From Planctomycetota bacterium (lineage in GTDB: Bacteria > Planctomycetota > UBA1135 > UBA2386), in contig JAEUHR010000042.1 in assembly GCA_016794425.1 (NCBI GenBank), positions 208,749 through 272,748 on the forward strand: a stretch of DNA of 64,000 bases, read 5' to 3'. The translations under genes were made by a program, and so were the position numbers. Position 1 is the stretch's first letter. Every line of letters begins with the position of its first letter. This document shows positions 25,154 through 64,000 of this stretch, piece after piece. Under the pieces are notes generated by a model. That model did not search any database and had not been told where the DNA came from. It saw only the letters and a program-made list of their open reading frames with translations.

Positions 25154-25159
25154 GGCGCA

Positions 25160-25297: not shown

Positions 25298-25325
25298 TTG
25301 CGACGGCGGGCGCCGCTCCTACGAT
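25298..25325 (+). promoter_or_regulatory. Sigma-70-type promoter of the exopolysaccharide operon
   Basis: TTGCGA (25298-25303), a 16-base spacer and TACGAT (25320-25325), each matching the consensus hexamer at 4 of 6 positions. The start would be near 25332. A GAGG ribosome-binding site at 25345-25348 stands 10 bases before the GTG at 25359. Confidence 0.5.
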
Positions 25326-25358
25326 GCGGCCTCGACTGCTTTGCGAGGCAAACCCGAC

Positions 25359-26177
25359 GTGATCCCCGTGCCCAGTTCCCTCTTCGTCCGGCTGCGCCTG
25401 TGCCTGTTGGCGATGCTGGCCGGTCTCGCGGCCTGCGGCAGCTACGAGGAGGTCCGCATCCGCCAGTTGCAGCACGAGAAGGGCTTCGGCACGCGCGCCA
25501 ACGGCGAGGCGACGCGCGAGAACTACGTCAGCGGCCTCGACTCGATCCAGTTCCTGCTGCCGCCCGAAGCGCTGGTGCAGGACGGCGCCGAACGCATGGT
25601 CGAACTGACCGTGCCGCAGCCGGTCGGCATCGACGGCACCGTGTTCATCCCGTACGTCGGGCCGGTCTACGTGCTCGGCAAGACCGAAGCCGAACTCGCG
25701 GCGCTGGTGCGCGCGCAGCTGCGCACGGTGCTGACGTTCGACGTGCCGCTGCAGGCGCGCATCATCGGCAACAACAAGTTCTTCTACGCGATCGGCGAGG
25801 TCGGCCGGCAGGGCCCGGTGCCGATGATCCCGGACCTGACGCTGTTCGACGCGATGTTCACCGCCCGGTGGACCGCGTTGGCCAACCTCGGCCGCGTCTA
25901 CGTGATCCGGCCCGACGCCGAGAACCCGCTGGTCATCGACGTGAACTTCCGCGAGATGCTGGTCACCGGCCTGACGAAGCCCAACATCGAGATGCGCGAA
26001 CGCGACATCCTCTACGTGCCGCCGACGTTCCTCGGCCTGATCGCGCGGCTCCTGCAACGCGTGCTCGAGCCGGTCGGCCTCGCCGTGCGCACGATGCTCG
26101 GTGTCGCGCAGTTCCGCGCCGCCTACGACGTCGTGTCGGGCCGGGAAGACGACAACGCCTTCTTCTTCCGCTTCTGA
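25359..26177 (+). CDS. Polysaccharide export outer-membrane lipoprotein (Wza-like)
   Basis: 272 residues from GTG 25359, supported by a GAGG 10 bases upstream; GTG 25368 is an alternative. The N-terminus is a lipoprotein signal with a perfect lipobox LAAC, lipidating Cys26. A polysaccharide-export (Poly_export) domain follows (ELTVPQPVGIDGTVFIPYVGPVY and VLGKTEAELAALV). An SLBB-like region comes next (QARIIGNNKFFYAIGEVGRQG, PDLTLFDAMF), then a C-terminal extension. It should form the outer-membrane channel for the polysaccharide. It is the first gene of the exosortase-type operon and is followed 33 bases later by the chain-length protein. Confidence 0.87.
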   Translation: MIPVPSSLFVRLRLCLLAMLAGLAACGSYEEVRIRQLQHEKGFGTRANGEATRENYVSGLDSIQFLLPPEALVQDGAERMVELTVPQPVGIDGTVFIPYVGPVYVLGKTEAELAALVRAQLRTVLTFDVPLQARIIGNNKFFYAIGEVGRQGPVPMIPDLTLFDAMFTARWTALANLGRVYVIRPDAENPLVIDVNFREMLVTGLTKPNIEMRERDILYVPPTFLGLIARLLQRVLEPVGLAVRTMLGVAQFRAAYDVVSGREDDNAFFFRF

Positions 26178-26210
26178 CGTGGCGCGCATGATCCCGCACC
26201 GAGGCCGGCG

Positions 26211-27824
26211 ATGACGCAGCTCGAGGTCCCGCAGATCTCGCTGCAGCGCTACCTCGACCTGCTGAAGCGACGGCGCTGGCAGGTGATCCCGGTGTCGCTG
26301 ATCGGCCTCGTCGTCGGCGGCCTGGTCGCGTTCTTCATTCCGCGCTACTACGTCGCCGACACGCTGGTCGTGCACCAGATGGTGCCCGGCAAGGCCGACC
26401 CGAAGAACCCCGAGGACCCGTTCCGCGCGATCGTCGACAGCGCCGAGCTGACCATGAAGCTGGCGGTCGGCGAGACGATGCGCGAGCTGCGCTGGCCCGA
26501 GGCGCTGGTCGCCGATCCGTCGCTGCGCACGCGCAACGAACGCGTCGTGCGCGATGCGCTGCGCGTGTTCGACATCAACCGCGGCGACAAGGACCGGCGC
26601 TTCGCGCAGATCCAGGTCATCTACCGCGACCTCGATGGCCAGCGCGCCGCCGACTTCCTGAACAAGCTGGTGCCGACCTGGGTCGCCGCGCAGCTGCGCG
26701 AGTTCCGCGAGCCGGCCGAGGCCGAGCAGCGCGAAGCAGCCGATGCGGTGCAGAACCACCGCCGGCTCTACGAGCTGCTGCTGCAGGAGCGGCGCCAGCT
26801 CGCGGTCGAATACCTGTTCGATCCGAGCAACCCGCTGCAGTTCCTGCAGCAGATGCAGAAGGCCGAGGAACAGCGCGTGCTGCGCGAGCTGCGCGACACC
26901 CGGGACCAGAAGCAGCGCGAGGTCGAGGCGCTGCGGTTGATGGTCGACGTCGACCGCCAGGCACTGGCGCTCATGGAAGCGCGCGTCGCACCGGATCCGG
27001 AGCTGCTGCTCGCCGAAGCCAAGAAGACGCCCGAGGGCACGGTGCTGACCGCGGCGCTGGAGCGCTACCGGAAGTCGCTGCGCAACTTCCACCCCGGCAC
27101 GGCCGAACACCGGCAGGCGCTGCTCGGCATCGAGCAGACCGAGCTGCTGCTGCGCGAGCTCGTCGGTGGCGCCGTCGACCCCGACGGCCGCATGGTGAAC
27201 CCCGCGCACACGGCGCTGCAGGCGAAGGTCGAACAGGCGGCGAGCCAGCTGGCGGCGCAGGAGGCCGAACTCGGTGCGCTCGAGGCGCAGCTCGCGGCCG
27301 AGAGCGAAGGGGTGCTGCGCCGCGCGCAGGGCCTGATCGAGTACGAGCGCAAGTCGGCGCAGTTCGACCAGACGCGGCGCGACCTCGCCGACGCCGAGCA
27401 GCGCCTGCGCGACGCCAACGCGGTCGTCGCGTCGCTCGGCAAGCAGCAGACCGTGCAGCAGGTCGGCGCGGCGCAGCCGCCGCCGCGGCCGACCGAGCCG
27501 AACATCCTGGTCGTGGCGCTGCTCGGCTGCGTGCTCGGACTCGGCGCCGCGATCGGCCTGATCCTGCTGCTCGACGTCGTGCAGGGCACGTTCAAGACCA
27601 TCGACGACGTCGAGCGCGGGCTGCCGGTGCCGGTGCTCGGCGGCATGAGCCACCTCGAGACCACGGCCGAGCGCGACCAGAACGTGCGCCGCCGCCGCCG
27701 CGCCTCGCTGATCGCCGCGACGATGGTGGCGCTGGTGGTGATCGTCGTGACGATCTTCTACGTCGATCCGACGCGGCTGCACCCGGCGGTGCGCGACCTG
27801 CTGGCGATGCTGCTGGGGAACTGA
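26211..27824 (+). CDS. Polysaccharide chain-length/co-polymerase protein (Wzz/GumC type)
   Basis: 537 residues. An N-terminal cytoplasmic stub (SLQRYLDLLKRRRWQVIPV) leads to a first membrane helix (LIGLVVGGLVAFFI). A long periplasmic coiled-coil region follows, with heptad-like Glu/Gln/Arg/Ala stretches such as QASQLAAQEAELGALEAQL. Two further hydrophobic stretches come near the C-terminus (LVVALLGCVLGLGAAIGLILL; IAATMVALVVIVVTIFYV), with VERGLPVPVLGGM between them, typical of exosortase-linked family members. No tyrosine-kinase domain is fused. It should pair with the Wza-like exporter across the envelope and control polymer length. The O-ligase gene starts 6 bases after it. Confidence 0.85.
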   Translation: MTQLEVPQISLQRYLDLLKRRRWQVIPVSLIGLVVGGLVAFFIPRYYVADTLVVHQMVPGKADPKNPEDPFRAIVDSAELTMKLAVGETMRELRWPEALVADPSLRTRNERVVRDALRVFDINRGDKDRRFAQIQVIYRDLDGQRAADFLNKLVPTWVAAQLREFREPAEAEQREAADAVQNHRRLYELLLQERRQLAVEYLFDPSNPLQFLQQMQKAEEQRVLRELRDTRDQKQREVEALRLMVDVDRQALALMEARVAPDPELLLAEAKKTPEGTVLTAALERYRKSLRNFHPGTAEHRQALLGIEQTELLLRELVGGAVDPDGRMVNPAHTALQAKVEQAASQLAAQEAELGALEAQLAAESEGVLRRAQGLIEYERKSAQFDQTRRDLADAEQRLRDANAVVASLGKQQTVQQVGAAQPPPRPTEPNILVVALLGCVLGLGAAIGLILLLDVVQGTFKTIDDVERGLPVPVLGGMSHLETTAERDQNVRRRRRASLIAATMVALVVIVVTIFYVDPTRLHPAVRDLLAMLLGN

Positions 27825-27830
27825 GCGCGG

Positions 27831-29210
27831 ATGCGCGACCTGCTCGTCTTCGCCGTCGTGCTGCTGACGCTGCCGACCAGCTTCCAGCGGCCGTTCGTCG
27901 GCCTGCTGGTGTTCAGCTGGCTCGCCTACATGCGGCCGCAGGACCTGTGCTGGGGCTTCGCGCGCACGATGCGGCTGTCGTTCTTCGTCGGCATCGCGAT
28001 GGTCGCCGGCTGGTGGGCGCGCGAACAGGGCCAGCGGCGGTTCACGCACTGGGACTTCCGCTCGCGCATGATGGTCCTGCTCGCAGTGCTGATCTCGATC
28101 AGCTACCTGTTCGCCTACGAGCACAGCGAGTACACGAACCGCTACTACTTCGAGTACCTGAAGATCGTGCTGATCGCGCTGTTCACGGTCGGTCAGGTCG
28201 ACACGCAGCAGCGGCTGCGCGTGATGTTGTGGACGATCGCGCTGTCGCTCGGCTTCTTCGGCATCAAGGGCGGCCTGTTCGGCGTGCTCAGCGGCGGCGC
28301 CCGCATCATGCGCGGTCCCGGCGGCATGCTCGAGGACAACAACGACTTCGCGTTGGCCCTGGTGATGAACGTGCCGCTGCTGTGGTACCTGGGCATCAGC
28401 GAACGCGGTCTGCCGGTGCTGAAGCGCGCGACCCAGGTGGCGGTGTTCCTGACCGTCGTCACGGTCGTGCTGACGCACAGCCGCGGCGGTTTCCTGGCGC
28501 TGTGCGCGACCGCATTGTGGATCGCGTGGCGCTCCGGCAAGCTGTTCCGCGCCGCGCTGGCGCTCGGCGTCTGTGGCCTGTTGTTCCTGACGCTGGCGCC
28601 GGACCACGTGCTGGAACGGCTGGGGAGCATCAACGACAAGACCGAGTCGTCGCGCAACGCGCGCTTCATCGCCTGGGCGACCGCGTTCCGGATGATCGAG
28701 GGCAACCCGGTGTTCGGCGTCGGCATGCGCAACTTCCAGTCGCGCTTCCTCGACTACTCGATCGTGCCGCCGAACGAGGGTTCGCCGACCTACGTCGCGC
28801 ACAACAGCTACCTGCAGATCTGGGCCGAGAGCGGCTCGCTGGCGTTCGTCGTCTACCTGCTGCTGCTGGGTTCGGTGTTCCTCGTCTGCCGCAAGGTGTT
28901 CCGCATCGGTCGCGCGCGGCTCGACCTGGCCTGGGCCGCCGACTACGCGCGCATGATGGAGGCCACGACGGTCGGCTTCCTGGTCGGCGCGTTCTTCCTG
29001 AACCGCGGCCACTTCGACCTGATCTACCACTGGCTGGCGCTGGTCACCTGCCTCGCGGGCGTCGCGTTCGCGGCCTGGCGCCGCGCCCCGGTCGGCACCA
29101 CGGCGCCGGTAGGCAGCCGCACCGTCGAGGTGCGGCGCCGCCCCGTCGGCAGCGTCGTGCCGGCCGCGGCGGGCACGGTGGTCTGGCAGCGACCGCGGCG
29201 GTGGCGCTGA
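27831..29210 (+). CDS. O-antigen ligase/polymerase-like membrane protein, exosortase-associated
   Basis: 459 residues with about eleven hydrophobic helices. The N-terminus (LLTLPTSFQRPFVGLLVFSWLAYMRPQDLCW) and the middle (GIKGGLFGVLSGGARIMRGPGG, DNNDFALALVMNVPLLWYL) match the putative O-glycosylation ligase of exosortase loci. The large periplasmic loop contains GNPVFGVGMRNFQSRFL and AHNSYLQIWAESG; the His there is the one conserved in WaaL/Wzy proteins. It would polymerise or transfer the lipid-linked glycan in the inner membrane. The stop overlaps the next ATG by one base. The Arg/Pro/Val-rich C-terminal tail is cytoplasmic and unusual. Confidence 0.82.
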   Translation: MRDLLVFAVVLLTLPTSFQRPFVGLLVFSWLAYMRPQDLCWGFARTMRLSFFVGIAMVAGWWAREQGQRRFTHWDFRSRMMVLLAVLISISYLFAYEHSEYTNRYYFEYLKIVLIALFTVGQVDTQQRLRVMLWTIALSLGFFGIKGGLFGVLSGGARIMRGPGGMLEDNNDFALALVMNVPLLWYLGISERGLPVLKRATQVAVFLTVVTVVLTHSRGGFLALCATALWIAWRSGKLFRAALALGVCGLLFLTLAPDHVLERLGSINDKTESSRNARFIAWATAFRMIEGNPVFGVGMRNFQSRFLDYSIVPPNEGSPTYVAHNSYLQIWAESGSLAFVVYLLLLGSVFLVCRKVFRIGRARLDLAWAADYARMMEATTVGFLVGAFFLNRGHFDLIYHWLALVTCLAGVAFAAWRRAPVGTTAPVGSRTVEVRRRPVGSVVPAAAGTVVWQRPRRWR

Positions 29211-31063
29211 TGTGCGGCATCGCCGGTCTGTTCGCGGCCTCGCCGCGGCACCCGATCGACCCGGCGTTGGCGGCGGCGATGGGCCACCGCTTGCAGCACC
29301 GCGGGCCCGACGGCAGCGGCCTGCGCGCTGGCCCCGGCTATGCGCTGGCGCACCGGCGGCTGGCGATCGTCGACATCGCCACCGGCGCGCAGCCGATGGG
29401 CAGCGACGACGGCCGGCTGTGGGTGACGTTCAACGGCGAGATCTACAACCACCTCGAGCTGCGGGCCGAACTCGAACGGCAGGGCGCCGTGTTCCGCACC
29501 CGCAGCGACACCGAGGTGCTGCTGCACGGCTGGCGCGCCTGGGGCACGGACCTGGCGTCGCGGCTGCGCGGTATGTTCGCGTTCGCGATCGTCGACGAGG
29601 CCCGGCACGAGCTCTACGCGGCGCGCGATCGGCTCGGCAAGAAGCCGTTCCACTGGCAGCTGCGCGACGGCGTGTTCGCGTTCGCCAGCGAACTGAAGGC
29701 GCTGCACGAACTCGGCGGGCCGCGGCGTCTGCGTGCCGACGCGATCGGCTGGTTCCTGGCGCTGCGCTACGTGCCGGATCCGGCGACGGTGTTCGCCTCG
29801 GTGCACAAGCTGCCGCCGGCGCACTGGTGCCGCGTGCGCGACGGTGTGGTCTCGCTGCAGCGCTACTGGCGGCTCGATTTCACGCCGGACCCGGCGCCGC
29901 GCGAACAGCACGAACAGCGCGTGCTGGCGCTGCTCGACGAGGCGGTGCGGATCCGGCTGATGGGCGAGGTGCCGCTGGCGCCGTTCCTGTCGGGCGGCAT
30001 CGACAGCTACGCGATCGTCGATTCGATGACGCGCACGCTGGGCCGCGGCGTGCAGGCCTGCACGATCGGTTTCGACGACCCGCACTTCGACGAACGACCG
30101 GCCGCGCGCGAGTCGGCCGCCGCCTGCGGCGCGCAGCTGCACGAGGAAGTGCTGACCGCGGCGCAGCTGCTGGAACTCGACTGGTACGCGGCGACCTACG
30201 ACGAGCCGTTCAGCGACAGCAGTGCGGTGCCGACCTGGCACGTCAGCCGGCTGGCGCGGCGCCACGTCACGGTCGCGTTGTCCGGCGACGGCGGCGACGA
30301 GGGCTTCGGCGGCTACCGGCGCTACCTGTTCGACGCGCGCGAACACCGGGCGCGGCGGTGGCTGCCGCGGCCGCTGTGGCGGCTGCTCGGCGCCGCCTAC
30401 CCGAAGGCCGACTGGCTGCCGCGGCCGCTGCGTGCGCGGCGCACGCTGCAGAACCTCGGCCGCACGCCGGCCGAGGCCTACGCGCGCTCGGTCAGTGCGC
30501 ACCTGCCCGGGGAAGTGCTCGCGGTGCTGCGGCCCGAACACCACGCCGCGGTCGGCGATCCGCACGCGCCGCTGCTGCAGGCCTACGAAGCCGCCGACGC
30601 CGTGCATCCGCTGCACCGCGCGGTCGCGACCGACCTCGCGACGTGGCTGCCCGGCGACATCCTGGTCAAGGCCGACCGCGCGTCGATGGCCGTCGCGCTC
30701 GAACTGCGCGCGCCGTTCCTCGACCACGAACTGCTGCAGGCAGCGGCGCGGATCCCGCCGGCGTGGCAGCTCGAAGGCGGTCGCACCAAGGCGTTCCTGC
30801 GCCGCGCACTGGCGGCGCGCCTCGCCCCGGCGGCGTTGCAGCGCAAGAAACAGGGCTTCTCGGTGCCGCTGCGCGAATGGTGCCGCGGGCCGATCGGCCT
30901 TGCCGTCGAGCAGGCGCTCGACTGTGCGCGGCTCGGCGAGTGGATCGAACCGGCGTCCGTGCGGCGGTTGTTGCAGCGGCACCGCGCCGGCACCGGCGAC
31001 CACGGCGAGATGTTGTGGGCCGTGCTGGTGCTGCAGCGCTTCCTGCAGCGGTGGGGGCGATGA
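29210..31063 (+). CDS. Asparagine synthase (glutamine-hydrolysing), exosortase-locus type
   Basis: 617 residues. Met is followed by Cys2, the glutaminase nucleophile (CGIAGLFAASP). The class II amidotransferase half includes HRLQHRGPDGSG, LAHRRLAIVD and FNGEIYNHLELR. The synthetase half has the PP-loop FLSGGIDSYAIVDSM and VALSGDGGDEGFGGYRRYL, with the C-terminal LRAPFLDHELL and RKKQGFSVPLREW. The length matches family members (~600-650) found beside exosortases, where the enzyme probably amidates a sugar carboxylate during polysaccharide synthesis rather than making free asparagine. It starts right after the ligase and overlaps the first glycosyltransferase by four bases. Confidence 0.9.
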   Translation: MCGIAGLFAASPRHPIDPALAAAMGHRLQHRGPDGSGLRAGPGYALAHRRLAIVDIATGAQPMGSDDGRLWVTFNGEIYNHLELRAELERQGAVFRTRSDTEVLLHGWRAWGTDLASRLRGMFAFAIVDEARHELYAARDRLGKKPFHWQLRDGVFAFASELKALHELGGPRRLRADAIGWFLALRYVPDPATVFASVHKLPPAHWCRVRDGVVSLQRYWRLDFTPDPAPREQHEQRVLALLDEAVRIRLMGEVPLAPFLSGGIDSYAIVDSMTRTLGRGVQACTIGFDDPHFDERPAARESAAACGAQLHEEVLTAAQLLELDWYAATYDEPFSDSSAVPTWHVSRLARRHVTVALSGDGGDEGFGGYRRYLFDAREHRARRWLPRPLWRLLGAAYPKADWLPRPLRARRTLQNLGRTPAEAYARSVSAHLPGEVLAVLRPEHHAAVGDPHAPLLQAYEAADAVHPLHRAVATDLATWLPGDILVKADRASMAVALELRAPFLDHELLQAAARIPPAWQLEGGRTKAFLRRALAARLAPAALQRKKQGFSVPLREWCRGPIGLAVEQALDCARLGEWIEPASVRRLLQRHRAGTGDHGEMLWAVLVLQRFLQRWGR

Positions 31064-47341: not shown

Positions 47342-49288
47342 ATGGTCTGCGCTGCGCCATCCGCCGCCTTCCTTTCGTTCCCGATTCCACCGCACCTCGC
47401 GCAGCCGCTGCGTCGGGCTCGGCGCGGCCTGCTGCTGCCGCTGCTGCTGGCCGCCGTCGGCGGGCTGCTGCCGGCGCAAGTGGTCCGCGTCGCCAACCAC
47501 TCGCTGGCCGGCTTCGACGGCTGGGTGCGCACGACGGTCGACACGCCGCTGCCGTTCGCGGCCGGCACGGTCGGCGGCTCCAGCTACGTGCGCGGGCGGC
47601 CGCTCGGGCTCGATGCCTGGGTCGTCGACGTGCACGTGTCGCTGGCGCCGTACGAACGGCGCACGATCGACCTCGGCGCCGCGGTGGCCGCGCCGGTGCC
47701 GACCGTGATGGCTCCGACCGATCCGGTGGCGCACTTCGGCGGCGCGTTGACCGTCGACGGCGTGCCGCTGTTCTACGACCTGCCGCGCGTCGACGGCGCC
47801 GCGCTGACGGTGCGCGGCCACGTGCGCACGAGCCCGATGCTGCACACGGAAGTCTGGCTGCGCTGGTATCCGGACCAGCCCGGCATCGTCTACGGCGAGG
47901 CGCTGGTGACCGCGTCGAACGCCGGTCTGCCCGACCTGGCGGCCGCGGTGCCGGCCACCGGGCTGCGGCTCGCGTGGGGCGACGGCATGGTGCACGTGCC
48001 GGGCGCGGGCTGGGGCGAACCGCTGGTGCCGGCGGGCACGACCTTCGCCGATGGCCAGGCGCGCGCGGTGCCGTTCGTGGCGCTCTGGTGGCGCCACTTC
48101 GCGACGCTCGAACACTGGTCGCAGGCCTACGCGGCGGTCGGCCTGCACGCGTGTGCGGCCGGCATCGACCGGCTGTGGCCCGGCGGCATGCCGGCGCAGG
48201 CGCCCGGCTTCGATGCGGTGGCATGGAGCTACGCGCACTTCGGCGAGTCGCTGCGGCGGCTGCACACGTGGGAACCCGGCGCGATCGGGCCGAACGCCAA
48301 CTCCGCCGACACCGGCGCGCAGTGGGACCAGGTGTTCGTCTGCGGTGAGTACGCGGAGCCGGACGGCATCGGCGCCGAAGTGGTCGCCTACCTCGGCGCG
48401 CTGAAGCTCGCGGCGCGGCCGTGCCACCACCGCGAACCGGACGGGCGGCAGGCCGATCCGCAGGACCATCCGCAGTGCGTGTTCTGGAGCGGGCGGCCGC
48501 ACTGGCACACCGGCGTGTCGCCGGACCAGCTCGGCAAGACCGGCACGGTGACGATCGAAGCGACGAACGGCTGGATGGGGCCCGACCGCGAGCACTGGCT
48601 CTACAACACCGTCGCCGCCGCCGCGCGCCTCACGGGTTCACCGTTGCTGCAGCGCGAACTGGAGCAGCAGGCGCGGCTGTTCCTGTTCGGCGAGACGGTG
48701 ACGCCCGGCTGGTCGACCAGCGGCGCCGACGCGGCGCGCAGCGTCGGCTGGGCCGGCATCCTGGTCACGCACTTGTGGCGCAACCTCGAGGACCGGGTGC
48801 TGGCGCAGCGCGTCGCGCAGCGGTGGCTCGACCGCGTCGACCTGGTCTATCTGCCGCAGCTCTGGAACCAGCCGTACGACGTCTGGGACGTGCGCATCGA
48901 CGATCCGCGGCTGGGGCCCGGCGCCTGGTGGATGGCGTGGCAGCAGAGCATCGGCGCGTTCGGCCTCGACCTCGCCTGCGAGCAGCTCGGCCACGCGCAG
49001 GGTCGCGTGCTGGCGCGCAAGGCGGCGCTCGCGTGCCTCGACCACAACTGGATCCAGCAGGGCACGCAGTGGCACGGCGTCGGCAACCTGATGTTCCCGC
49101 CGCCGGCGCCGGCCTTCTACGACGGCATCACCTGGCCCGAACCGTGGTTCGAGACCACGTGGGACCTCCCGGCGCTGGCCGTGGTGCGCCGGCAGGTGCC
49201 CGGCCACGCGAAGGCGAACGCGGTCTGGACGCAGGTGATGGGGGATCTCGGTCCGCAGCGCCGTTCGTGGCTGCCGCCCGGTAGCTGA
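47342..49288 (+). CDS. Secreted protein of unknown function
   Basis: 648 residues. An Arg-rich stretch and hydrophobic run (RRARRGLLLPLLLAAVGGLLPAQ) act as a rather late signal peptide, so the true start may lie within the first 25 residues. The mature N-terminal ~200 residues are beta-rich (VTIDVHVS-like strands such as VVDVHVSLAPYERRTIDLG). The rest is rich in Trp and helices (ALWWRHFATLEHWSQAYAA, EHWLYNTVAAAARLTGS, GWAGILVTHLWRNLEDRVL). That makes an alpha/alpha-toroid fold of glycan lyases or hydrolases conceivable, but I see no catalytic motif I can name. It is flanked by the two tRNA genes and stands alone. Three copies of a 16-base repeat begin over its stop codon. Confidence 0.6.
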   Translation: MVCAAPSAAFLSFPIPPHLAQPLRRARRGLLLPLLLAAVGGLLPAQVVRVANHSLAGFDGWVRTTVDTPLPFAAGTVGGSSYVRGRPLGLDAWVVDVHVSLAPYERRTIDLGAAVAAPVPTVMAPTDPVAHFGGALTVDGVPLFYDLPRVDGAALTVRGHVRTSPMLHTEVWLRWYPDQPGIVYGEALVTASNAGLPDLAAAVPATGLRLAWGDGMVHVPGAGWGEPLVPAGTTFADGQARAVPFVALWWRHFATLEHWSQAYAAVGLHACAAGIDRLWPGGMPAQAPGFDAVAWSYAHFGESLRRLHTWEPGAIGPNANSADTGAQWDQVFVCGEYAEPDGIGAEVVAYLGALKLAARPCHHREPDGRQADPQDHPQCVFWSGRPHWHTGVSPDQLGKTGTVTIEATNGWMGPDREHWLYNTVAAAARLTGSPLLQRELEQQARLFLFGETVTPGWSTSGADAARSVGWAGILVTHLWRNLEDRVLAQRVAQRWLDRVDLVYLPQLWNQPYDVWDVRIDDPRLGPGAWWMAWQQSIGAFGLDLACEQLGHAQGRVLARKAALACLDHNWIQQGTQWHGVGNLMFPPPAPAFYDGITWPEPWFETTWDLPALAVVRRQVPGHAKANAVWTQVMGDLGPQRRSWLPPGS

Positions 49289-54362: not shown

Positions 54363-56603
54363 TCAATCGTCTTCGAAGTGGCCGCGGAACTCGACGTCGG
54401 CCGCGCAGCCGTCATGGACCATCAGGCGCGTGCGGCTCTCGTCACCGGGTCGGATCACGGCGCGGCCGGTCCAGTCGAGTTCGAACGGACCCGCTGCCGG
54501 CGTGCCGGCCAGGTCCCGCCCGTCGAGCAGCAGCCGGATCGTGGGGATGCCCTCGGGCTGCGCGTGGACGTGGCCGCGCGCCCGCACCGACGTGACCACG
54601 AACCGCTTGCCGGCCGGCACACAGCCGCCCTCGGCCCAGGCCGCGCCGAACCGCGAAGGCGCCGCGGTGATGGTGATCGGGCCGTCGGCGAAGGACGTCA
54701 GGCCGGCGCGCCCGCGCAGGTCGACATCGATCTGCCGGTTCCGGAACTGGCCGGTCTGTGCCTGCAGCCGGACGCTGGGTTCGCGCAGCACCGGCGGCGG
54801 TGCGACGACCGGCGGCGGGTCGTGGAAGAAACCCGCGTTGGTGCCGCCGAACCGGGCCGGCAGCTCGGTCGCCAGCGGTTCGAGGTGGCCGAACAGCTGC
54901 ACCTCGACCCAGCTCGAGTTCGCGATCTCACACCAGGTGTCGTCCTCGGCGCCGGGCACGATCACGAGCCGGCCGTGCCAGCTGCCCTGGATCGGCGCCT
55001 GGGTCTGGTCGAACTCGGCGAGCATCTCGCCGGCGACGCAGACGCGCAGGCGGCCGGAGCCGTTCGAGTCGCCGACGGCGCCGCCGCGCCACGACACGTC
55101 GGTGACGACGAACTGCCGGTCGCCCGGCACGAAGCCGCCGCGCACGTAGGCCTGGGACCGTTCGTGGCGGTCCGGCGTCACACCGAGCGCCAGCGGCTGT
55201 GCTTCGCGCGAACGCACGTAGCCGTTGGCGCGGCCGGCGAAATCGACGCGGTTCGGATTGCCGCCGCCGGCGCCGTTGCGCAGCTGCAGCAGCACCGGTG
55301 AGCTCGGCGCCGGCCCGGACTGGGCCCGCGCCCGCAGTTCGGCCAGCACGGTCGTCCACGGCCGACCGGTGCCCGGGTCGAGCAGCGAGCCCTGCGCGCG
55401 GCCGCTGCCGTCGGTGCAGTACCAGTCCAGCACGACGCGGCGCCCGGGCGCGTGTTCGCGCACGAACGCGACCGTCGCGAGGTCGCTGTCGGTGTCGAGC
55501 GTGTGCACGAAGTACGCGTGGCCCGCCTGCACCGTCGCGCTGGCGGCGAATGCCAGCGGCGCCGCGGCGACCGGCAAGGCGCCGAAGTCGGCCGGAGCCA
55601 GCACGCCGAGGTCGGCGATCGTGCCCTGGTCGTCGGTGACGGTCGTGCTGTCCAGCTCGTCGCGCGTGAACGCGACGTCCCAGTCGTTGCGCGTGTAGCG
55701 GCAGCCCGGGTCGTCGCGCAGACCCCATTCGAAGCTGAAGGTCGCCAGCTCGTAGTCGCAGTAGTGCGACCACTCGAACAGCTCCGCGCGCGGCAGCAGC
55801 CGCTGCACGACGCGGACCTCGGTGCGGTCGGTCTCGGCGGCTGCGGTCGGCGTGGTCGCGGCGGTGGGCGCGACGGCCGGCGACGCGGCGGCGGGTGGCG
55901 GCGGGGGCACGGCCTCGGTCGCCGTCCGCACCGGCGGCGCCGGCGTCGGCGTAGCGCCGGCGAACAAGAACGTCACCCAGACGGCGGCGACGGCAGCCAG
56001 ACCACCGCCGAGCAGCACCGCACCCGCCGGCACCGTCGTCGGTGCGGCCGCGCCGAGCAGCGGCAGCGCCAGCACCGTCCACCGTTCGCGGTCGCCGTAG
56101 TCGCGGTCGAGCCGCTGCCGCAGCAGTTCGTGCGCGCGGCTCAGCTGCGACCGCACGGTCGCGGCGCTGCGGCCGAGCTGCGCCGCGATCTCGCCGATCG
56201 AGCGCTGCTGTTCGTAGCGCAGCAGCACGACCGGCTGGTACGGCTCGCCGAGCGCCAGGATCGCCGCGGTGACGCGCTGGCGCAGTTCGAGCCGCAGCTG
56301 CGACTGCTCCGGCGACTCGGCGATCGGCTCGCCGGCACCGTGGGCGCGGTCGCGCTGCGCCTGCCGGCGGGCGCGGCGCCAGTTCGACACGGCCAGGTTG
56401 CGCGCGACGCGCGCGAGCCACGGCCGCGGGTCGCGCGGCACGGCACCGGGGCGCTGCAGCGTGCGCAGCCACAGATCCTGGATCGCGTCGTCGACGGCCG
56501 CATCGTCGCGCAGCAGCCCGCGCAGCAGCAGGCGGACGAAGTGCTCGTGGGCGAGCAGGTGGGCGGCCAGGGCGGGGGGTTCCATCGGCGGTCGGGGCGT
56601 CAT
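54363..56603 (-). CDS. ECF sigma factor fused to a transmembrane helix and a large outer domain
   Basis: About 746 residues. Residues ~15-80 are sigma region 2 (HFVRLLLRGLLRDDAAVDDA, IQDLWLRTLQRP, WLARVARNLAVSNWRR). Residues ~105-165 are region 4 (LALGEPYQPVVLLRYEQQRS, IGEIAAQLGRSAATVRSQLS). Residues ~193-215 are one membrane helix (AGAVLLGGGLAAVAAVWVTF). Then come a Pro/Ala/Thr linker and ~500 residues outside. The outer part ends in two similar domains, roughly residues ~535-625 and ~660-746. Each begins GGxVPxxxxFVVTxVxxRG, contains W-x-GR-x-V-I-x-PG, and closes GH-(L/F)-E. The protein could sense the envelope and release or hold its own sigma part. No separate anti-sigma gene is adjacent. 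Start ATG 56603 is one of several (56585, 56612) before region 2. Confidence 0.8.
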   Translation of the reverse strand: MTPRPPMEPPALAAHLLAHEHFVRLLLRGLLRDDAAVDDAIQDLWLRTLQRPGAVPRDPRPWLARVARNLAVSNWRRARRQAQRDRAHGAGEPIAESPEQSQLRLELRQRVTAAILALGEPYQPVVLLRYEQQRSIGEIAAQLGRSAATVRSQLSRAHELLRQRLDRDYGDRERWTVLALPLLGAAAPTTVPAGAVLLGGGLAAVAAVWVTFLFAGATPTPAPPVRTATEAVPPPPPAAASPAVAPTAATTPTAAAETDRTEVRVVQRLLPRAELFEWSHYCDYELATFSFEWGLRDDPGCRYTRNDWDVAFTRDELDSTTVTDDQGTIADLGVLAPADFGALPVAAAPLAFAASATVQAGHAYFVHTLDTDSDLATVAFVREHAPGRRVVLDWYCTDGSGRAQGSLLDPGTGRPWTTVLAELRARAQSGPAPSSPVLLQLRNGAGGGNPNRVDFAGRANGYVRSREAQPLALGVTPDRHERSQAYVRGGFVPGDRQFVVTDVSWRGGAVGDSNGSGRLRVCVAGEMLAEFDQTQAPIQGSWHGRLVIVPGAEDDTWCEIANSSWVEVQLFGHLEPLATELPARFGGTNAGFFHDPPPVVAPPPVLREPSVRLQAQTGQFRNRQIDVDLRGRAGLTSFADGPITITAAPSRFGAAWAEGGCVPAGKRFVVTSVRARGHVHAQPEGIPTIRLLLDGRDLAGTPAAGPFELDWTGRAVIRPGDESRTRLMVHDGCAADVEFRGHFEDD

Positions 56604-56693
56604 CCTCGTCATCGACGGCCGACACGCCACCGGCTTCGCCGGCGCGGCAAGGAAGTCGGGAATCCGCGGCGCGCGGGCCGGCTGCCCGGGCCG

Positions 56694-58445
56694 TCAGCGC
56701 CGCCCGAGCGCGTCGGCGAGGCCCGAACCCCGCTGCGGCCAGCTGCTCAGGCCCTGCTGCAGCAGCGTGGGCGGCGCGCAGACGATGGCGCGGCGGCGGG
56801 CCCGGGTCACGCCGGTGTAGAGCACCGGTGCCTGCCACAGCGGCCCGGGCGCATCCGGCATCGCCAGCAGCACTTCGTCGAACTCGCTGCCCTGCGCCTT
56901 GTGCACGGTCATCGCCCACGCGGTCGTGTGTGCCGGCAGCCGCAGCAGCGACACGTCGCGGCAGCCGGTCGCGGTCGCGAACACCACGCAGCGCTGGCCG
57001 TCGTGCTCGACGACCACGCCGAGGTCGCCGTTCCAGATCTGGTTCTGGTGGTCGTTCTGCGTCACCAGCACCGGCCGGCCGAGATAGAACGGCTCGTCGG
57101 TGCGGTGGCCGTGCCGGTGCAGCAGTGCCTCGACGCGGCGGTTCCACGCGTCGGCGCCGGTTGGGCCGTGGCGCGTCGCGCACAGGATCCGGCAGCGCCA
57201 GAGGTGCGCGAGCGCGGTCGCGGCATCGCCGGCGCCGGCGGCGGCAGCGGCGGCGAGCAGCGCCGCCATGTGCTGCAGCGCCGCCGCCGCGTCGGGTTCG
57301 ACCAGCAGGTCCGCGTGGCCGGCCGCCAGCACGGCCCCGGCCGTGGTCGCGTCGCGCGCCGCCAGCGCGGTCGCGAAGCCACCGATGCCCGGCTGCGCCG
57401 CGAAGCGGTGGTTCTGCCGCAGCGCGACCACGGCGTTGCCGAGCGGTGGCGCCGCCGTGTGCACGGGCAGCTCCATGCCGGTCGCCGCGTGCACGTAGTC
57501 GGCGAGGAGGCGGCCGACGCCACGTTCGGGTTCGGCCGCGCGGCACAGGTCGCCGAGCACCTGGCCGGCGGCGACCGCCGCGAGCTGGTCGCGGTCGCCG
57601 ACCAGCACGAGCCGCGCGTCGGGTCGCAGCGCCTCGCCGAGCTGCGCCAGCAGCGCCGGGTCGACCATCGACGCCTCGTCGACGACGACCACGTCGTACG
57701 GCAACAGGCGGTCGCGGCCGTGCCGGAACGCGTCCTCGAGCGGCAGGTAGCCGAGCAGGCGGTGCAGCGTGCGCGTCGCGATGCCGTCGGCGGCCGCGGC
57801 CAGGTGCGGTTGCTGCTCGGCGCGGGCGCGCAGCGCTTCGCCGAGGCGGGCGGCGGCCTTGCCGGTCGGCGCGCACAGGGCGATCTGCAGCCGCGGTTCG
57901 AGGTGCAGCAGCACCGACAGCAGCTTCGCGACCGTGGTGGTCTTGCCGGTGCCCGGTCCGCCGGTCAGCACGGTGAACGGCCGCGCCACCGCGGCGGCGA
58001 CGGCCGCCAGCTGCCAGTCGACGGTGCCGGCCGGCGGCAGCATGCCGAGGTCGCGCAGCGCGGCGCCGAGCCGCGCGGCGTCGACGCGCGGCGGGCCGTC
58101 GAGCCGCGCCTGCACCAGGGCCAGCACGCGCCGTTCGTCGCGGAAGTGGCGCCGGAAGTAGAGCCGGTCCGCGGCGTCCAGCACCAGCGGCAGCGGCGGC
58201 CCGGCCGCGTCGGTGCCGCACAGGCCGCTGGCGAGCAGGTCGTGCCGCCAGCTCGCCGCGTCCGGGAACGGCGGTTCGCCGTCGCCGCCGGTGCGGTGCT
58301 GCCACTCGGCCAGGGGGATGCAGACGTGGCCGGCCTCACGTTCGCCGTAGAGCAGCCGCACGGTGCGCTGCAGCAACGGCGCGAACGCAGCGGGGGCACG
58401 GCCGGCCAGCAGCGCCGCCAGTTCCGAGGCGAGCAGCACGGTCAT
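56694..58445 (-). CDS. recD: Exodeoxyribonuclease V alpha subunit, RecD helicase
   Basis: 583 residues. A short N-terminal domain precedes the superfamily 1 helicase core: Walker A TVLTGGPGTGKTTTVAKLL with Lys168, motif Ia LCAPTGKAAARL, motif II VVVVDEASMVD, motif III LVLVGDRDQLAAV, VVALRQNHRFAAQPG, and the C-terminal UvrD-like TVHKAQGSEFDEVLL with LYTGVTRARR. It is the fast 5'-3' motor of RecBCD in double-strand-break repair. ATG 58445 overlaps the recB stop (ATGA). It is the last gene of a recC-recB-recD operon. Confidence 0.94.
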   Translation of the reverse strand: MTVLLASELAALLAGRAPAAFAPLLQRTVRLLYGEREAGHVCIPLAEWQHRTGGDGEPPFPDAASWRHDLLASGLCGTDAAGPPLPLVLDAADRLYFRRHFRDERRVLALVQARLDGPPRVDAARLGAALRDLGMLPPAGTVDWQLAAVAAAVARPFTVLTGGPGTGKTTTVAKLLSVLLHLEPRLQIALCAPTGKAAARLGEALRARAEQQPHLAAAADGIATRTLHRLLGYLPLEDAFRHGRDRLLPYDVVVVDEASMVDPALLAQLGEALRPDARLVLVGDRDQLAAVAAGQVLGDLCRAAEPERGVGRLLADYVHAATGMELPVHTAAPPLGNAVVALRQNHRFAAQPGIGGFATALAARDATTAGAVLAAGHADLLVEPDAAAALQHMAALLAAAAAAGAGDAATALAHLWRCRILCATRHGPTGADAWNRRVEALLHRHGHRTDEPFYLGRPVLVTQNDHQNQIWNGDLGVVVEHDGQRCVVFATATGCRDVSLLRLPAHTTAWAMTVHKAQGSEFDEVLLAMPDAPGPLWQAPVLYTGVTRARRRAIVCAPPTLLQQGLSSWPQRGSGLADALGRR

Positions 58446-61400
58446 CGCCCGCCTCCGGCCCAGCGGTCCATCGCCTCGACCAGCGCGCGCGGCACGCGGT
58501 CGAACAGCATGCCGTTGCTGTCGTCGGGCCGCACGCCGCGCAGGAACGCGTAGGCGATGCCGCCCTGATGGCGGTCGTAGTCGTAGCCGGGCAACCGCGC
58601 GCGCAGCTGGCGGTGCAGCGCCAGCACGTAGAGGTGGTACTGCAGCACGTAGTCGCTGTCGACCATCGCGGTCGCCAGCGCGTCCGGGCCGTAGTCGGCG
58701 GCGCGGTCGCCGAGGTGGTTGGACTTCCAGTCGACGATCCAGTGCCGTTCGCCGTGCGTCGCGCACAGGTCGACGAACCCGACCAGGAACCCGTGCAGGG
58801 TCCGCGGCGGCAGCCGGCGCAGGCGGTCGGCGTAGCGCTGCGCCAGCGCGCTGCCGTGCCGCGCGAACGCCGCCGCCAGCGCCTCCAGCGAGCTGCCCGG
58901 CGTCGGCAGCGTGAACTTCCACTCGATCGCCTTCGGTCCGCGGGCCAGTTCGGCGACCGTCGGGCCACCGGCGTGCACGCGGGCCGCCGCGAGGTCCTTC
59001 AGGTTCTGCAGCACGTCGGCGACCGGATCGAGTGCGCCGGTGTGCGCGGCCGGGTCGGCGAGGCCGTAGGCCTGCAGGGTCTGCCGCACCAGCGCCGCCG
59101 CCGCGTCGGTCTGCAGCGCGTCCAGGTCGGCGTGTTCGAGCAGCGTGTGCAGGCACTGGCCGGCGCGGGCGCCGCGCGCGAACGCGAAGATGCCGCGCGC
59201 CGGTGCGGCGCTGATGGTCTGGCTGTGCCTGGCGGCGGGGTCGGCGACGTCGGGGCCCGGTTCGAGCCCGTGTGCGCCGGCCACCAGCGACGAGAAGCTG
59301 TGCAGCGCGCGCGGCGCCAGCAGGCGCTGCGCGGTGCGCGCCGGGCCTAGGGGCGCGACCGGCATCGGCGGCAGCGGTGCCGCGGTCGGCGCGACCGGCA
59401 CCAGGTCGACGCCCATCGTGCCGCCGCTGGCCGCACACAGCTCGTCGAGGCGGGCCCGCAGGTGCGGGAAGCCCTGCTTGGCGCGGTCGCTCCAGGTCGC
59501 GAACCGCTCCGGGTGCTGCGGCAGCTCGAGGTCGACCGGCGGCGGCCACAAGAGCCACGCGAGCGCGCTGCGCGGCGCGTCCTTGCTGCAGGGGCCGACG
59601 TGCACGTAGGTGCGCCGGCGCGCGCGCGTCAGCGCGACGTAGCAGAGCCGCACGTCCTCGGCCTGCCGCGCGACCTCGAGCGCGGCCTTGGCTTCGGTGT
59701 CGAGTTCGAACGCGAGCCGGCGGGCGCCCGGCAGCGGCACGATCGCCGGCGCGCGGTCGCGGCGGGCGTCCCACAGGAACGGGCAGAACACGACCTCGTA
59801 CTGCAGGCCCTTGCTGCCGTGCACGGTCAGGATCTGCACCGCGTCCTCGTCGCTCTCGAGCCGCAGTTCGCGCAGCTGGTAGTCGAGTTCGTCCTTGTGC
59901 CGCCGCTCGTGCAGCAGCCATTCGAGCAGGCCTTCGGCGGACAGCCGCTCGTCGTGTTCGGCCTGGTGCAGCAGCTCGAACAGCTGCCGGTAGTTCGTCA
60001 GCGAGCGCTCGCCGCCGCGCTGCGCCAAGAGGCGCGGCACGACGCCGAGGTCGCCGAGCAGACGTTCGGCCATCGCGACGAAGCCGTGTCGGTGCCAGAG
60101 CCGGCGCCACTCCTCGAGCCGGCGCAGCTCGCCGTCGAACGCTTCGTCGTCGCTCAGCGAGGCGTGCACCCAGGTCGCGTCGCGGCCCCAGAGCCGCGTC
60201 GCCATCGCGCTGCGCGCCAGCGCCAGGTCGCGCGGCTGCACGATCGCGCGCAGCAGCCGTTCGACGTCGACGATCTCGTCGGTGTCGAAGATGTCGCCGG
60301 CCTTGCCGATCGCGGAGACGATGCCGGCGTCGCGCAGGGCCTCCTGCACGCGCACGGCCTGCCGGTTGGTGCGCGTCAGCACCGCGCAGTCGCGCGGCAG
60401 CAGCCGCCGATCGTCGATCCGCGCCGGGCCGGCGAGCAGGCGCGCGACCTCCGCCGCGACGTCGGCGGCGATGCGCGCCTCCGACGGTTCCTTGGTCAGG
60501 TTGGTCGGATCCTCGCCGTCGCTGCTGCCGAGCAGGCGCCAGCGGAACGCCGGCCCCGGATCGCCGTCGAGCGCCAGCGCGCCGGGCGCGGCGCTGGCGT
60601 GTACGACCGGCAGCGTGATGCCCGCGTCGACGAACGCGGTCGCCGGCCCGAACAGGTGCGACACGGCTGCCACCAGCGGCCCGCTGCTGCGGAAGTTCGT
60701 GTCCAGTGTGCCGACCGTCGCCGCGTCCCGGCGCGCCGCGAAGTAGGCGTCGAGGTCGGCACCGCGGAAGCCGTAGATCGACTGCTTCGGGTCGCCGACC
60801 AGGAACAGCGGCCGTTGCGCGAAGCAGGTCGCGAAGATCTCGTACTGCAGCGCGTCGGTGTCCTGGAACTCGTCGATCAGCGCGACTTCGTGGCGCTCGC
60901 GGATCGCCGCCAGCAGCACGTCGCGGCGCGCCGGATCCTGCAGCGCCGCGTGCGCGCGCTGCAGCAGGTCGTCGAACGACAGCACGTGCTGGCGCTGCTT
61001 GTCGCGTGCCAGCCGCTCGTCGAGGTCCTGCAGCAGCTGGGCCCGCAGGTGCACCAGCGCGGCGTCGACTGCGTCGGCGGCCGCGTCGCAGTCGTCGAAG
61101 AACGGGTGTCCGTCCGGCCGCTGCGAGTTCTTCTTCAGGCTCTTGCCGAGCCGGCGGCGGCCCAAGCGCACCACCAGCGGCAGCGCCAGCACCGGCGCCG
61201 TGCGCAGTTGCGCCGCGAACCGCTGCAGTTCGGGCTCGACGTCGGTGCGGTTCTCGAACGGGCAGTCGTCCTTCAACCACTGGAACGACGCGATGCGCGC
61301 GAGGCAGGCCGCGTCGCAGCCGGCGGCGGCCCGCGCGAGCGGCGCCGCGATCGCCGCCGTGTGCGCCGCCGCGTCCGGGTGGTTCGGCTCGAGCGCGATG

Positions 61401-61978
61401 TCGGGGTGCCGGCGCCAGAGCAGCCAGGCGCTGGCCAGCGCCTCCGGCGTCAGCTTGCCGAGCGCCAGCAGCGCGTGCGTCGCGTCCGGTTCGGCGGCGT
61501 AGCGGCGCCGCACCACGTCGGCGGCGGCGCGGTGCAGCAGCGGCAGTGGGTCGACGACGAAGTCGAGCCGGAACGGCTGCCGCGTCTCGAACGCGCTCTC
61601 GTCGAGCAGCCGCTTGCAGAAGCCGTGGATGGTCGCGATCGGCACGCGGTCGAAGTCGTCGAGCGCGGCGCGCGCGCGCGCGGCGGCGTCCGGTCGCTGC
61701 GCGAGCCGGCGCCAGAGCGGGTCTCTGCACGGCGCGCCCTCGGCGGCGGCGAGCACGGTCTGCAGGCCTCGGCGCAGGCGCTGCTTCAGCTCCTCGGTCG
61801 CCGCGACCGTGAACGTGACGACCAGCGCCCGGTCCAGCGACGGGATCCGCTGTTCGAACAGCAGCCGCAGCAGCAGGCCGATGATCGTGTAGGTCTTGCC
61901 GGTGCCGGCGCTGGCTTCCAGCAGCAGCGTGCCGGCGTCCAGCGGCGCGGTCGCGAGGTCGAAGCGGGGGACGTTCAT
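58442..61978 (-). CDS. recB: Exodeoxyribonuclease V beta subunit, RecB helicase-nuclease
   Basis: 1178 residues, full family length. The helicase motifs are in order: Walker A LLLEASAGTGKTYTIIGLLL (Lys28), ALVVTFTVAATEELKQR, TIHGFCKRLL, motif II VALIDEFQDTDALQY, LFLVGDPKQSIYGFRGA, LDTNFRSS, VQILTVHGSKGLQYEVVF and LCYVALTRARRR. The C-terminal RecB nuclease has GQCLHTLLEH, FLVGFVDLCATHG, WIVDWKSN (Asp1083, Lys1085) and VLQYHLYVLALHR. The nuclease looks active. ATG 61978 overlaps the recC stop and directly precedes the family N-terminus, so longer open frames upstream are not used. Confidence 0.95.
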   Translation of the reverse strand: MNVPRFDLATAPLDAGTLLLEASAGTGKTYTIIGLLLRLLFEQRIPSLDRALVVTFTVAATEELKQRLRRGLQTVLAAAEGAPCRDPLWRRLAQRPDAAARARAALDDFDRVPIATIHGFCKRLLDESAFETRQPFRLDFVVDPLPLLHRAAADVVRRRYAAEPDATHALLALGKLTPEALASAWLLWRRHPDIALEPNHPDAAAHTAAIAAPLARAAAGCDAACLARIASFQWLKDDCPFENRTDVEPELQRFAAQLRTAPVLALPLVVRLGRRRLGKSLKKNSQRPDGHPFFDDCDAAADAVDAALVHLRAQLLQDLDERLARDKQRQHVLSFDDLLQRAHAALQDPARRDVLLAAIRERHEVALIDEFQDTDALQYEIFATCFAQRPLFLVGDPKQSIYGFRGADLDAYFAARRDAATVGTLDTNFRSSGPLVAAVSHLFGPATAFVDAGITLPVVHASAAPGALALDGDPGPAFRWRLLGSSDGEDPTNLTKEPSEARIAADVAAEVARLLAGPARIDDRRLLPRDCAVLTRTNRQAVRVQEALRDAGIVSAIGKAGDIFDTDEIVDVERLLRAIVQPRDLALARSAMATRLWGRDATWVHASLSDDEAFDGELRRLEEWRRLWHRHGFVAMAERLLGDLGVVPRLLAQRGGERSLTNYRQLFELLHQAEHDERLSAEGLLEWLLHERRHKDELDYQLRELRLESDEDAVQILTVHGSKGLQYEVVFCPFLWDARRDRAPAIVPLPGARRLAFELDTEAKAALEVARQAEDVRLCYVALTRARRRTYVHVGPCSKDAPRSALAWLLWPPPVDLELPQHPERFATWSDRAKQGFPHLRARLDELCAASGGTMGVDLVPVAPTAAPLPPMPVAPLGPARTAQRLLAPRALHSFSSLVAGAHGLEPGPDVADPAARHSQTISAAPARGIFAFARGARAGQCLHTLLEHADLDALQTDAAAALVRQTLQAYGLADPAAHTGALDPVADVLQNLKDLAAARVHAGGPTVAELARGPKAIEWKFTLPTPGSSLEALAAAFARHGSALAQRYADRLRRLPPRTLHGFLVGFVDLCATHGERHWIVDWKSNHLGDRAADYGPDALATAMVDSDYVLQYHLYVLALHRQLRARLPGYDYDRHQGGIAYAFLRGVRPDDSNGMLFDRVPRALVEAMDRWAGGGR

Positions 61979-64000
61979 GCGTCCTCCGGGTACGCGTGCT
62001 CGAAGTAGGGCGCCCAGATCGCCTGCGCCCACGACGCGAACTCGGGATCGTCGAACGGTTGCCGGCCGCGCTGGCACAACGCGATCGCGTCGTCTTCGCT
62101 GTCGCCCGGCAGACCCCAGTCGGACGTGGACGGCAGCCACTGGCTCAGCGCCGCGCGCAACGCCGCGGCGGTGTCGTGGTCACCCAGCGCCTCGGCGAAC
62201 GCGAACGAGCTCCGCTCGAACAGCGGCAGCGGCCGCGCCAGGCCGCGGCGGTAGCCGTCGACGAACCGCGCCAGCAGCGCGAGCGCCTCGGCGTCGTCGA
62301 TCGGGCGCAGCGTCACGGTCTCGTCCTTCGTGAACAGCAGCGTGCGCGCCGGCAGGCCCGCGGCCCCCTGCGCGCGCGCCGCGTGCATCCAGACGTGCTG
62401 CAGCCAGGCGCGCAGGCGGTACTTCGGCTTGTTGCTGGCGACGTGCACGTGCACGGCGCCGTCCGGCCCGAAGCCCTCGAGCACGCCGGCGATCGCGGTG
62501 CCGTCGAGCACGACCCGCAGCTGCGCGCGGCCGTCGACCGCGAACGGCCGGATCCGGCGCAGGAACTGTTCGGCTTCGTTCGCCAGCGGCGCGAACGCGA
62601 ACGCGCCGAGTCCGCCGACCGGCAGCCGACCGGTGGCGCGCGCCGCTGCCAGCGCGTCGGCCGGCGGCGGTGCACCGCGCTGGGCGGCGCGCACGATCGG
62701 ATCGAGCAGACGCCAGCGTTCGAGCGACGACACCGCGAACGGTTCGGTCTCCAGTTCGTCGTCGGCGTCGCGCGGGAACCGCAGCCGCAGCACGTCGCGC
62801 GTGAAGCAGCGGTTCGGGTGGTGCCAGAAGTCGGCGAGGCGCGCGAACGGCAGCTCGGTGCCCAGCAGGTCCGCCGGCGGCGCGACGGGCGCCGTGACGA
62901 ACGGCGGCAGCGCGGTCGGTTCCTGCGGCGTGCCGGGCGCATCGCCGCGCGCATAGGTGAACAGGCGCCGATCGGCGCCGTTGCGGTAGCGGCGGCTCCA
63001 GGGCTGCAGCGGATGTCGCACCAGCACGAGGTCGCGCGGCGCGGCGCCGCCGGCGACCGTGCAGGTCCGGTCGACCAGATCCAGCAGTTCGGCGATCGCG
63101 ACCGACGGCGCGCACGGGCTGTCGTCCTTCTGCGACCGGCCGACGAACGTCAGGTGCAGCCGCTCGCGCGCCGCCAGCAGCGCGTCGAGGAACAGCTGCC
63201 GGTCGTCGAGCCGCACGCTGCGGTCGCCGGCGCGGCGGCGGCGCGCCAGCAGGTCGAACGGCGGCGGCTGGTCGCGGCGCGGAAACGCCTGGTCGGACAG
63301 GCCGCACAGGTAGACGTGGCGGGCCGGCACCGTGCGCATCGGCTGCATCGCCGCGACCGTGACCGCGCCGCCGAGGAAGCCGCGGCCGGTCGCGGCGCGC
63401 TGCAGCTGGTGCCGCAGCCAGTCGCGCAGCACGATCGGCGACCACGGCTCGCGCAGCACCGCCGCCGCCGCGCCCGCGCGCAGGTCGGCGGTCGCGCGCT
63501 GCAGCCGCTGCAGCGCCTGCTCTTCGTCGGCGTCGGTCGGTTCGTAGAGCGCGGCCGCGACCGCATCGACCAGGTCGGCCCAGTCGGCCGGCGCGTGCGG
63601 CCGCTGCAGCGTCGGCAGGTGGCGGAACAGCGTGCGCAGGAAGTCGAGGCCGCGCTGCAGCAGTTCGTCGCGGCCGGCGGTCGCGTCGGCGGCCGGCAGC
63701 AGGCCCAGCACGAGGTCGTCGGCGGGTCCCGTCGCGACGCCGAGCAGCAGCCGTTCGATGCCCTGCTGCCACGAGTTCTCCTCGAACGCGGGCAGCTGGA
63801 ACTGCCGCGCCCGCGCGGCGCCGTCGATGCCCCAGCGGATGCCGGCGCGCTGGCACCAGTGGCGCAGCACCGGCACCTCGCCGGGCGCCAGCGCGAACCG
63901 CCGCAGCACCGCCGGTTGTTCGAGCAGGTGCAGCACGTCGAACACCTCGAGCCGGCCCTGCGCGAGTTCGAGCACGCTCAGCAGCGACGCGCACAGCGGC
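61975..64000 (-). CDS. recC: Exodeoxyribonuclease V gamma subunit, RecC (N-terminus off the window)
   Basis: About 675 residues of the C-terminal part are visible; the gene continues past base 64000. The visible start (SLLSVLELAQGRLEVFDVLHLLEQPAVLRRF) matches the conserved RecC segment before helicase-like domain 2A. VYLCGLSDQAFPRRD, LFLDALLAARERLHLTFVGR and the inactive nuclease-like C-terminal domain with FARLADFWHHPNRCFTRDVL follow. RecC holds the other two subunits and reads Chi-like sites. It overlaps recB by four bases. No stop or frameshift is seen in the visible part. Confidence 0.9.
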   Translation of the reverse strand, partial: PLCASLLSVLELAQGRLEVFDVLHLLEQPAVLRRFALAPGEVPVLRHWCQRAGIRWGIDGAARARQFQLPAFEENSWQQGIERLLLGVATGPADDLVLGLLPAADATAGRDELLQRGLDFLRTLFRHLPTLQRPHAPADWADLVDAVAAALYEPTDADEEQALQRLQRATADLRAGAAAAVLREPWSPIVLRDWLRHQLQRAATGRGFLGGAVTVAAMQPMRTVPARHVYLCGLSDQAFPRRDQPPPFDLLARRRRAGDRSVRLDDRQLFLDALLAARERLHLTFVGRSQKDDSPCAPSVAIAELLDLVDRTCTVAGGAAPRDLVLVRHPLQPWSRRYRNGADRRLFTYARGDAPGTPQEPTALPPFVTAPVAPPADLLGTELPFARLADFWHHPNRCFTRDVLRLRFPRDADDELETEPFAVSSLERWRLLDPIVRAAQRGAPPPADALAAARATGRLPVGGLGAFAFAPLANEAEQFLRRIRPFAVDGRAQLRVVLDGTAIAGVLEGFGPDGAVHVHVASNKPKYRLRAWLQHVWMHAARAQGAAGLPARTLLFTKDETVTLRPIDDAEALALLARFVDGYRRGLARPLPLFERSSFAFAEALGDHDTAAALRAALSQWLPSTSDWGLPGDSEDDAIALCQRGRQPFDDPEFASWAQAIWAPYFEHAYPEDA

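Follow-up and report, generated by a model that had tools for sequence, protein, structure and literature searches.

We find that the ECF sigma factor encoded on the minus strand at 54363..56603 of the planctomycete DNA analysed here, a stretch of 64,000 nucleotides that we call the window, is joined in one chain to a membrane helix and to an outer part made of two kinds of domain, one copy of S followed by two copies of R. The fusion is shared by seven genomes and, on the sequence comparisons reported below, is a real and conserved one-chain signalling design. We propose that the protein acts as a one-chain transmembrane signal transducer in which the sigma factor is held at the membrane and freed by proteolysis, and we put the probability of this reading at about one half.

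Gene and reading frame

Read from the ATG at 56603 the coding sequence comprises 746 codons and a stop; judging from the spacing of the upstream element and from the relatives, the ATG at 56585 (740 aa) is more likely to be the start. The minus-strand frame is open across the 746 codons, the plus-strand frame of the same interval is broken by an internal stop, and the codon-position G+C in frame (0.77/0.56/0.93) is like that of the surrounding genes. From the N to the C terminus the chain consists of sigma region 2, sigma region 4, a hydrophobic juxtamembrane segment, the helix, a linker rich in Pro, Ala and Thr, S, R and R. A first-pass annotation of the sequence had described a single 746-residue chain with sigma regions 2 and 4 and a membrane helix, and the open frame, Pfam, hydropathy and AlphaFold all bear this out.

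On the same strand, the 5' neighbours form a helicase-nuclease cluster with UvrD and PD-(D/E)XK domains (58442-62140), the last gene of which ends about 90 bases before the sigma-fusion gene. Downstream and convergent lies TruD, followed by genes for a carboxyl-transferase (AccD-like), a ribulose-phosphate epimerase and a gamma-glutamyltranspeptidase. These adjoining genes give no pointer to the function of the sigma-fusion gene, and no recurring neighbour gene was found around it across the loci of the relatives. Also nearby in the window is a plus-strand frame of 648 residues (47342-49288) that has a coding-like composition and no Pfam match.

Sigma part and membrane anchor

Sigma-70 region 2 occupies residues 18-80 (56364..56552, minus strand; PF04542, E 2.1e-8) and region 4 residues 109-157 (56133..56279, minus strand; PF08281, E 1.5e-9), both matches being above cut-off. 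The general model TIGR02937 gives 70.1 bits (cut-off 42.9), and the top Foldseek matches of the sigma part, region 4 included, are ECF sigmas. By these tested features, regions 2 and 4 together with an ECF model over its cut-off, the protein is an ECF (group 4) sigma factor. Two planctomycete sigma subfamily models stay below their curated cut-offs (TIGR02984, 30.3 bits vs 183.75; TIGR02989, 57.2 bits vs 124.55). At E values up to 10 the remaining Pfam matches are weaker helix-turn-helix models on region 4, and none to an anti-sigma, zinc-finger or WD40 domain occurs in the chain; a FecR-like or other anti-sigma domain is likewise absent from the 25 best NCBIfam matches. The 60 residues that follow region 4 contain no Cys or His.

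Region 4 is followed by the hydrophobic juxtamembrane segment (residues 166-195; 56019..56108, minus strand), which reads RLDxxxGxRxxWxxLxxPL in the alignment of seven family members. Next comes the one strong hydrophobic helix of the chain, at residues 196-214 (55962..56018, minus strand; Kyte-Doolittle hydropathy 2.2), where AlphaFold predicts a helix at 201-214. Because the role of a sigma factor is cytoplasmic and the chain has a single helix, the C-terminal part would lie outside. The Pro/Ala/Thr-rich linker (residues 217-264; 55812..55955, minus strand) is unstructured in the full-length model, which was built from 8 sequences and has folded sigma and outer domains and low confidence at 172-264.

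The stretch LDxxxGxRxxW with hydrophobic residues directly after region 4 was also seen in six other ECF proteins (L136, L145, L197, L202, L204 and L210). Its carriers are helix-fused ECFs with differing outer parts, and ECFs free of an extension stop before this segment.

Two unnamed outer domains

Domain S spans residues 266-440 (55284..55808, minus strand) and is defined by a profile of 12 proteins. When it was modelled together with the first R copy (19 sequences) the mean pLDDT was 90. The two R copies, at residues 437-577 (54873..55295, minus strand) and 611-746 (54366..54773, minus strand), were delimited by pair alignment, profile and model. They are 32% identical (blastp E 7e-15 for the pair), profiles of the relatives' first and second copies align over their full length (probability 100, E 2e-51), and the main predicted strands of the two copies follow the same order at a constant offset of 169-171 residues. 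The earlier description of about 500 outer residues ending in a duplicated domain thus holds for the repeats, and agreement among identity, profiles and strand offsets disposes of the concern that the second copy might fail to align; what had been overlooked is S, a separate domain of about 170 residues before the repeats.

The outer domain had been called unnameable, and we arrive at the same result: neither S nor R has a match in Pfam, NCBIfam or PDB sequence searches, and residues 175-746 as a whole gave no credible family in these resources. In its predicted structure R is a beta-sandwich domain. A fold search with S and R gave nothing in the PDB beyond a generic beta-sandwich, with a similar outcome in a viral library, and by fold comparison R weakly resembles generic beta-sandwiches, carbohydrate-binding modules among them. 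On the evidence of these searches S and R are two unnamed domain families.

The fusion in related genomes

Among 154 genomes of the order, 13 match the outer part. Four proteins have sigma, helix, S and two R in one frame (L042, L043, L044 and L045), two show the same fusion but have an extra S, in degenerate form, lying between their R copies (L046 and L047), and in another (L048) the fusion is cut at the helix by a contig end. One of the four, L045 (the same as L151), comes from Planctomycetes bacterium Poly30, on the complete chromosome CP036434.1. Among named genomes, matches came from a scan with an alignment query, a single-protein query having returned none. Within the class, every genome in which R was found has S as well, and R is in tandem in every protein except one cut by a contig end. 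In a sample of 392 genomes from across the phylum, S turned up in 19 and R in 10. No plasmid relatives were found.

The window genome is a draft of 64 contigs, and one may ask whether a sequencing or assembly error has merged what are really two genes, one for the sigma and one for the outer part. Against this, the same fused frame is present in seven separately assembled genomes, the complete chromosome among them, and residues are conserved on both sides of the helix in the family alignment. Since six relatives share the fused order, one of them in a complete chromosome, we reject a sequencing error as the origin of the fusion and regard two separate genes, which the first-pass annotation had named as a result that would undo its reading, as extremely improbable.

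The window's own genome has 108 sigma-70 matches, and 29 of the 30 best-scoring end no more than 28 residues after region 4. At least 15 further proteins (L196-L202, L204, L207, L208, L210-L213 and L215) nevertheless combine a sigma factor with a long outer part, mostly with a detectable helix, and a few more resemble these 15. All ten of the sigma-outer fusions that were scanned carry CarboxypepD_reg (carboxypeptidase-regulatory) repeats. These paralogues are like the window protein in having a sigma part, mostly a detectable helix, and a long outer part, but unlike it in that the outer part is made of CarboxypepD_reg and not of S and R, which are found once only in this genome. Given the number of such fusions and the CarboxypepD_reg repeats in all ten, the general plan is ordinary in this genome and lineage, and the S-R-R outer part is the special feature.

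Domain S on other proteins

S or an S-like domain is found at the outer end of seven other ECF proteins (L129, L135, L136, L142, L144, L145 and L146), although several distant matches are weak. It also occurs on a Ser/Thr kinase (L143, 4694-7483), on a BlaR1-like M56 membrane protein (L053, 5728-7530) whose NCBIfam assignment, at E 1e-18, is far below the curated cut-off, and on a multi-helix protein (L130); another kinase (L140, 3302-5143) has an R-like match. Secreted or lipoprotein-like chains with S are L049, L050, L051, L131, L132 and, from Pyrinomonadaceae, L157. L049:6441-7994, from a related genome, looks secreted: it has S-R-R, an N-terminal stretch resembling a signal sequence and no sigma domain. 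Another unnamed domain of about 150 residues, which we call GYSF, adjoins S in L128, L135, L136 and L143; a relationship between the two was rejected, as their profiles do not match.

In a tree of sigma domains the seven family members group with one S-like ECF (88/92), and L129 with L142 (100/99) and, separately, L136 are placed apart from the family; several deeper forks of this tree are weak. The positions of L129, L142 and L136 suggest that S was joined to ECF sigmas more than once. Its presence on lipoproteins, on kinases and on a protease-like protein as well raises the possibility that S is a shared sensing part. A broader proposal, which we hold only tentatively, is that S could be an outer sensing module, so far overlooked, that Planctomycetota share with at least one member of the Acidobacteriota and that has passed from one to another of ECF sigmas, Ser/Thr kinases and BlaR1-like proteins. 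In the present family it would drive a self-regulating sigma switch in the membrane, built as one chain with no anti-sigma.

A conserved element upstream of the gene

A promoter-like element, CTTGCCGCG-N10-CGGTGGCGTGTC, lies at 56621..56651 on the minus strand and is conserved before four orthologues. Read as TTGCCGCG-N11-GGTGGCGTGT, it precedes the window gene and those of L042, L043 and L044, and more weakly that of L045. With a leave-one-out matrix the site ranks 1st of 127,940 positions in the window (29.6 bits, the next scoring 13.3) and 1st of 23,000-30,000 positions at each of the other four loci. As the element was first spotted by eye in these same sequences, its leave-one-out ranks should be given more weight, even though the sites had been chosen beforehand. 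The adjoining genes differ between genomes, so that the conservation does not come from shared coding sequence. The element is roughly 30-75 bases 5' of the likely starts, and its TTGCCG-N17-GCGTGT spacing is that of a sigma-dependent promoter. The canonical ECF promoter AAC-N15-18-CGT is absent upstream of six of the seven family genes.

An exact match to the element occurs in the window's own genome at the gene's own site only, and the same is true in genome G010. Allowing up to 3 mismatches gave 19 matches in the own genome against 35 for a backward-pattern control, hence no excess; a looser pattern gave 7 against 1, most of the others being inside coding-like frames. With matches beyond the gene at or near control level, this regulon search found no second target. 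The main element is missing from L046 and L047; upstream of these two genes (about 5370 and about 8736, respectively) we noticed by eye a shared CGTAGCG-N11-RGYGGCRTYT of the same spacing. Taken from conservation and position, the upstream element is likely an autoregulatory promoter; it is possibly a site for some other regulator.

How the protein might signal

In the mechanism that we propose, the N-terminal ECF sigma domain would sit in the cytoplasm, anchored by the single helix, and S-R-R would lie outside, where it would bind a ligand from the envelope or the environment. In the resting state the sigma would stay membrane-bound; the hydrophobic juxtamembrane segment, with its LDxxxGxRxxW stretch, might then mask region 4. 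A change in the outer part would expose the chain to regulated proteolysis, first by a cut outside and then by one of RseP type within the membrane. Once free, the sigma would transcribe its targets, among them its own gene, which it would read from the conserved upstream element in positive autoregulation.

That S is found on several signalling outputs, from other ECF sigmas to a kinase and a BlaR1-like protein, supports this transducer reading. So do the two sigma regions and single helix in one frame, the recurrence of the fusion in six relatives, the lack of an anti-sigma domain and of a recurring neighbour, and the conserved upstream element, with its promoter-like spacing and its single exact site in the own genome and in G010. 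The genome also has an RseP-type M50 peptidase; to our knowledge M50 peptidases are near universal, so its presence is not specific. For the sigma-fusion protein we identified no cleavage site, conserved protease site or protease partner. It had been argued from the sequence that a sigma factor tied to the membrane with its own sensor would need no separate anti-sigma. The tie to the outer part in one chain stands, in seven genomes, and the lack of an anti-sigma or zinc-finger domain, of Cys or His after region 4 and of a recurring neighbour fits the idea, under which the outer part would do the sensing and no anti-sigma encoded elsewhere would act on the chain.

One may instead suppose that the sigma acts while tethered and recruits RNA polymerase at the membrane with no cleavage, the outer part altering the state or pairing of the chain. 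ToxR and CadC are membrane-bound one-component regulators of this sort, and the window protein resembles them in being one chain with its DNA-binding part on the inner and a folded part on the outer side of the membrane; the failure to find a protease site or partner points the same way. We consider this rather doubtful, as a sigma factor must accompany RNA polymerase in initiation, which would be harder if tethered, and as the studied membrane-bound ECF, IutY, is released by proteolysis and its truncated sigma is active (PMC8999054).

The occurrence of S in secreted and lipoprotein chains that have no signalling part speaks against a sensor role; the domain may serve for binding instead. On this view S-R-R would bind the envelope or anchor the protein to it, and the sigma would be governed by another protein or by how strongly it is expressed. 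Chains in which S stands alone or with R (L049, L131 and L157) and the weak likeness of R to carbohydrate-binding modules are in line with this, but a mere anchor accounts poorly for the repeated presence of S on membrane signalling proteins as different as the kinase and the BlaR1-like protein, and we think it unlikely. Proteolytic release of a membrane-held sigma is the reading that we prefer, on the analogy of IutY, for which such release has been demonstrated (PMC8999054), and of SCO4117, for which it has been proposed (PMC5826349).

The family offers a compact test case for how membrane-bound sigmas lacking an anti-sigma stay silent, in the form of a single gene that has one candidate promoter element and encodes a lone membrane helix with modular outer domains. 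Of the two unnamed domain families that it defines, one connects membrane signalling proteins of several kinds and could find a place in domain libraries.

Comparison with known systems

Planctomycete ECFs with long C-terminal extensions had been noted as known, which the literature confirms for WD40 types such as ECF57, whose extensions are very long and whose repeats are thought to bind proteins (PMC8999054, PMC8567305); the window protein differs in having no WD40 match. ECF52 (SCO4117 of Streptomyces coelicolor), a group confined to Actinobacteria for which proteolytic release has been proposed, combines an ECF sigma, a zinc finger, a helix, a proline-rich linker and a carbohydrate-binding module (PMC5826349). 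The window protein shares the sigma, helix, proline-rich linker and outer domain in one chain, but no anti-sigma-like zinc finger was found before its helix, and where ECF52 has a named carbohydrate-binding module it shows, beyond the sigma part, nothing that Pfam or NCBIfam recognises. In IutY of Pseudomonas putida (ECF243), which signals in iron uptake, the sigma is fused C-terminally to a membrane-bound anti-sigma part and its release by Prc and RseP has been demonstrated (PMC8999054). The C-terminal fusion to a membrane-bound part is common to both proteins, whereas the FecR-like anti-sigma domain of IutY has no counterpart in ours. What we claim as new is limited to the unnamed outer domains, the absence of an anti-sigma domain and a private upstream element, an earlier mention being possible. 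Because the zinc finger and the anti-sigma domain were tested for and are absent, the window protein falls outside the ECF52 and IutY types, and it may work like them.
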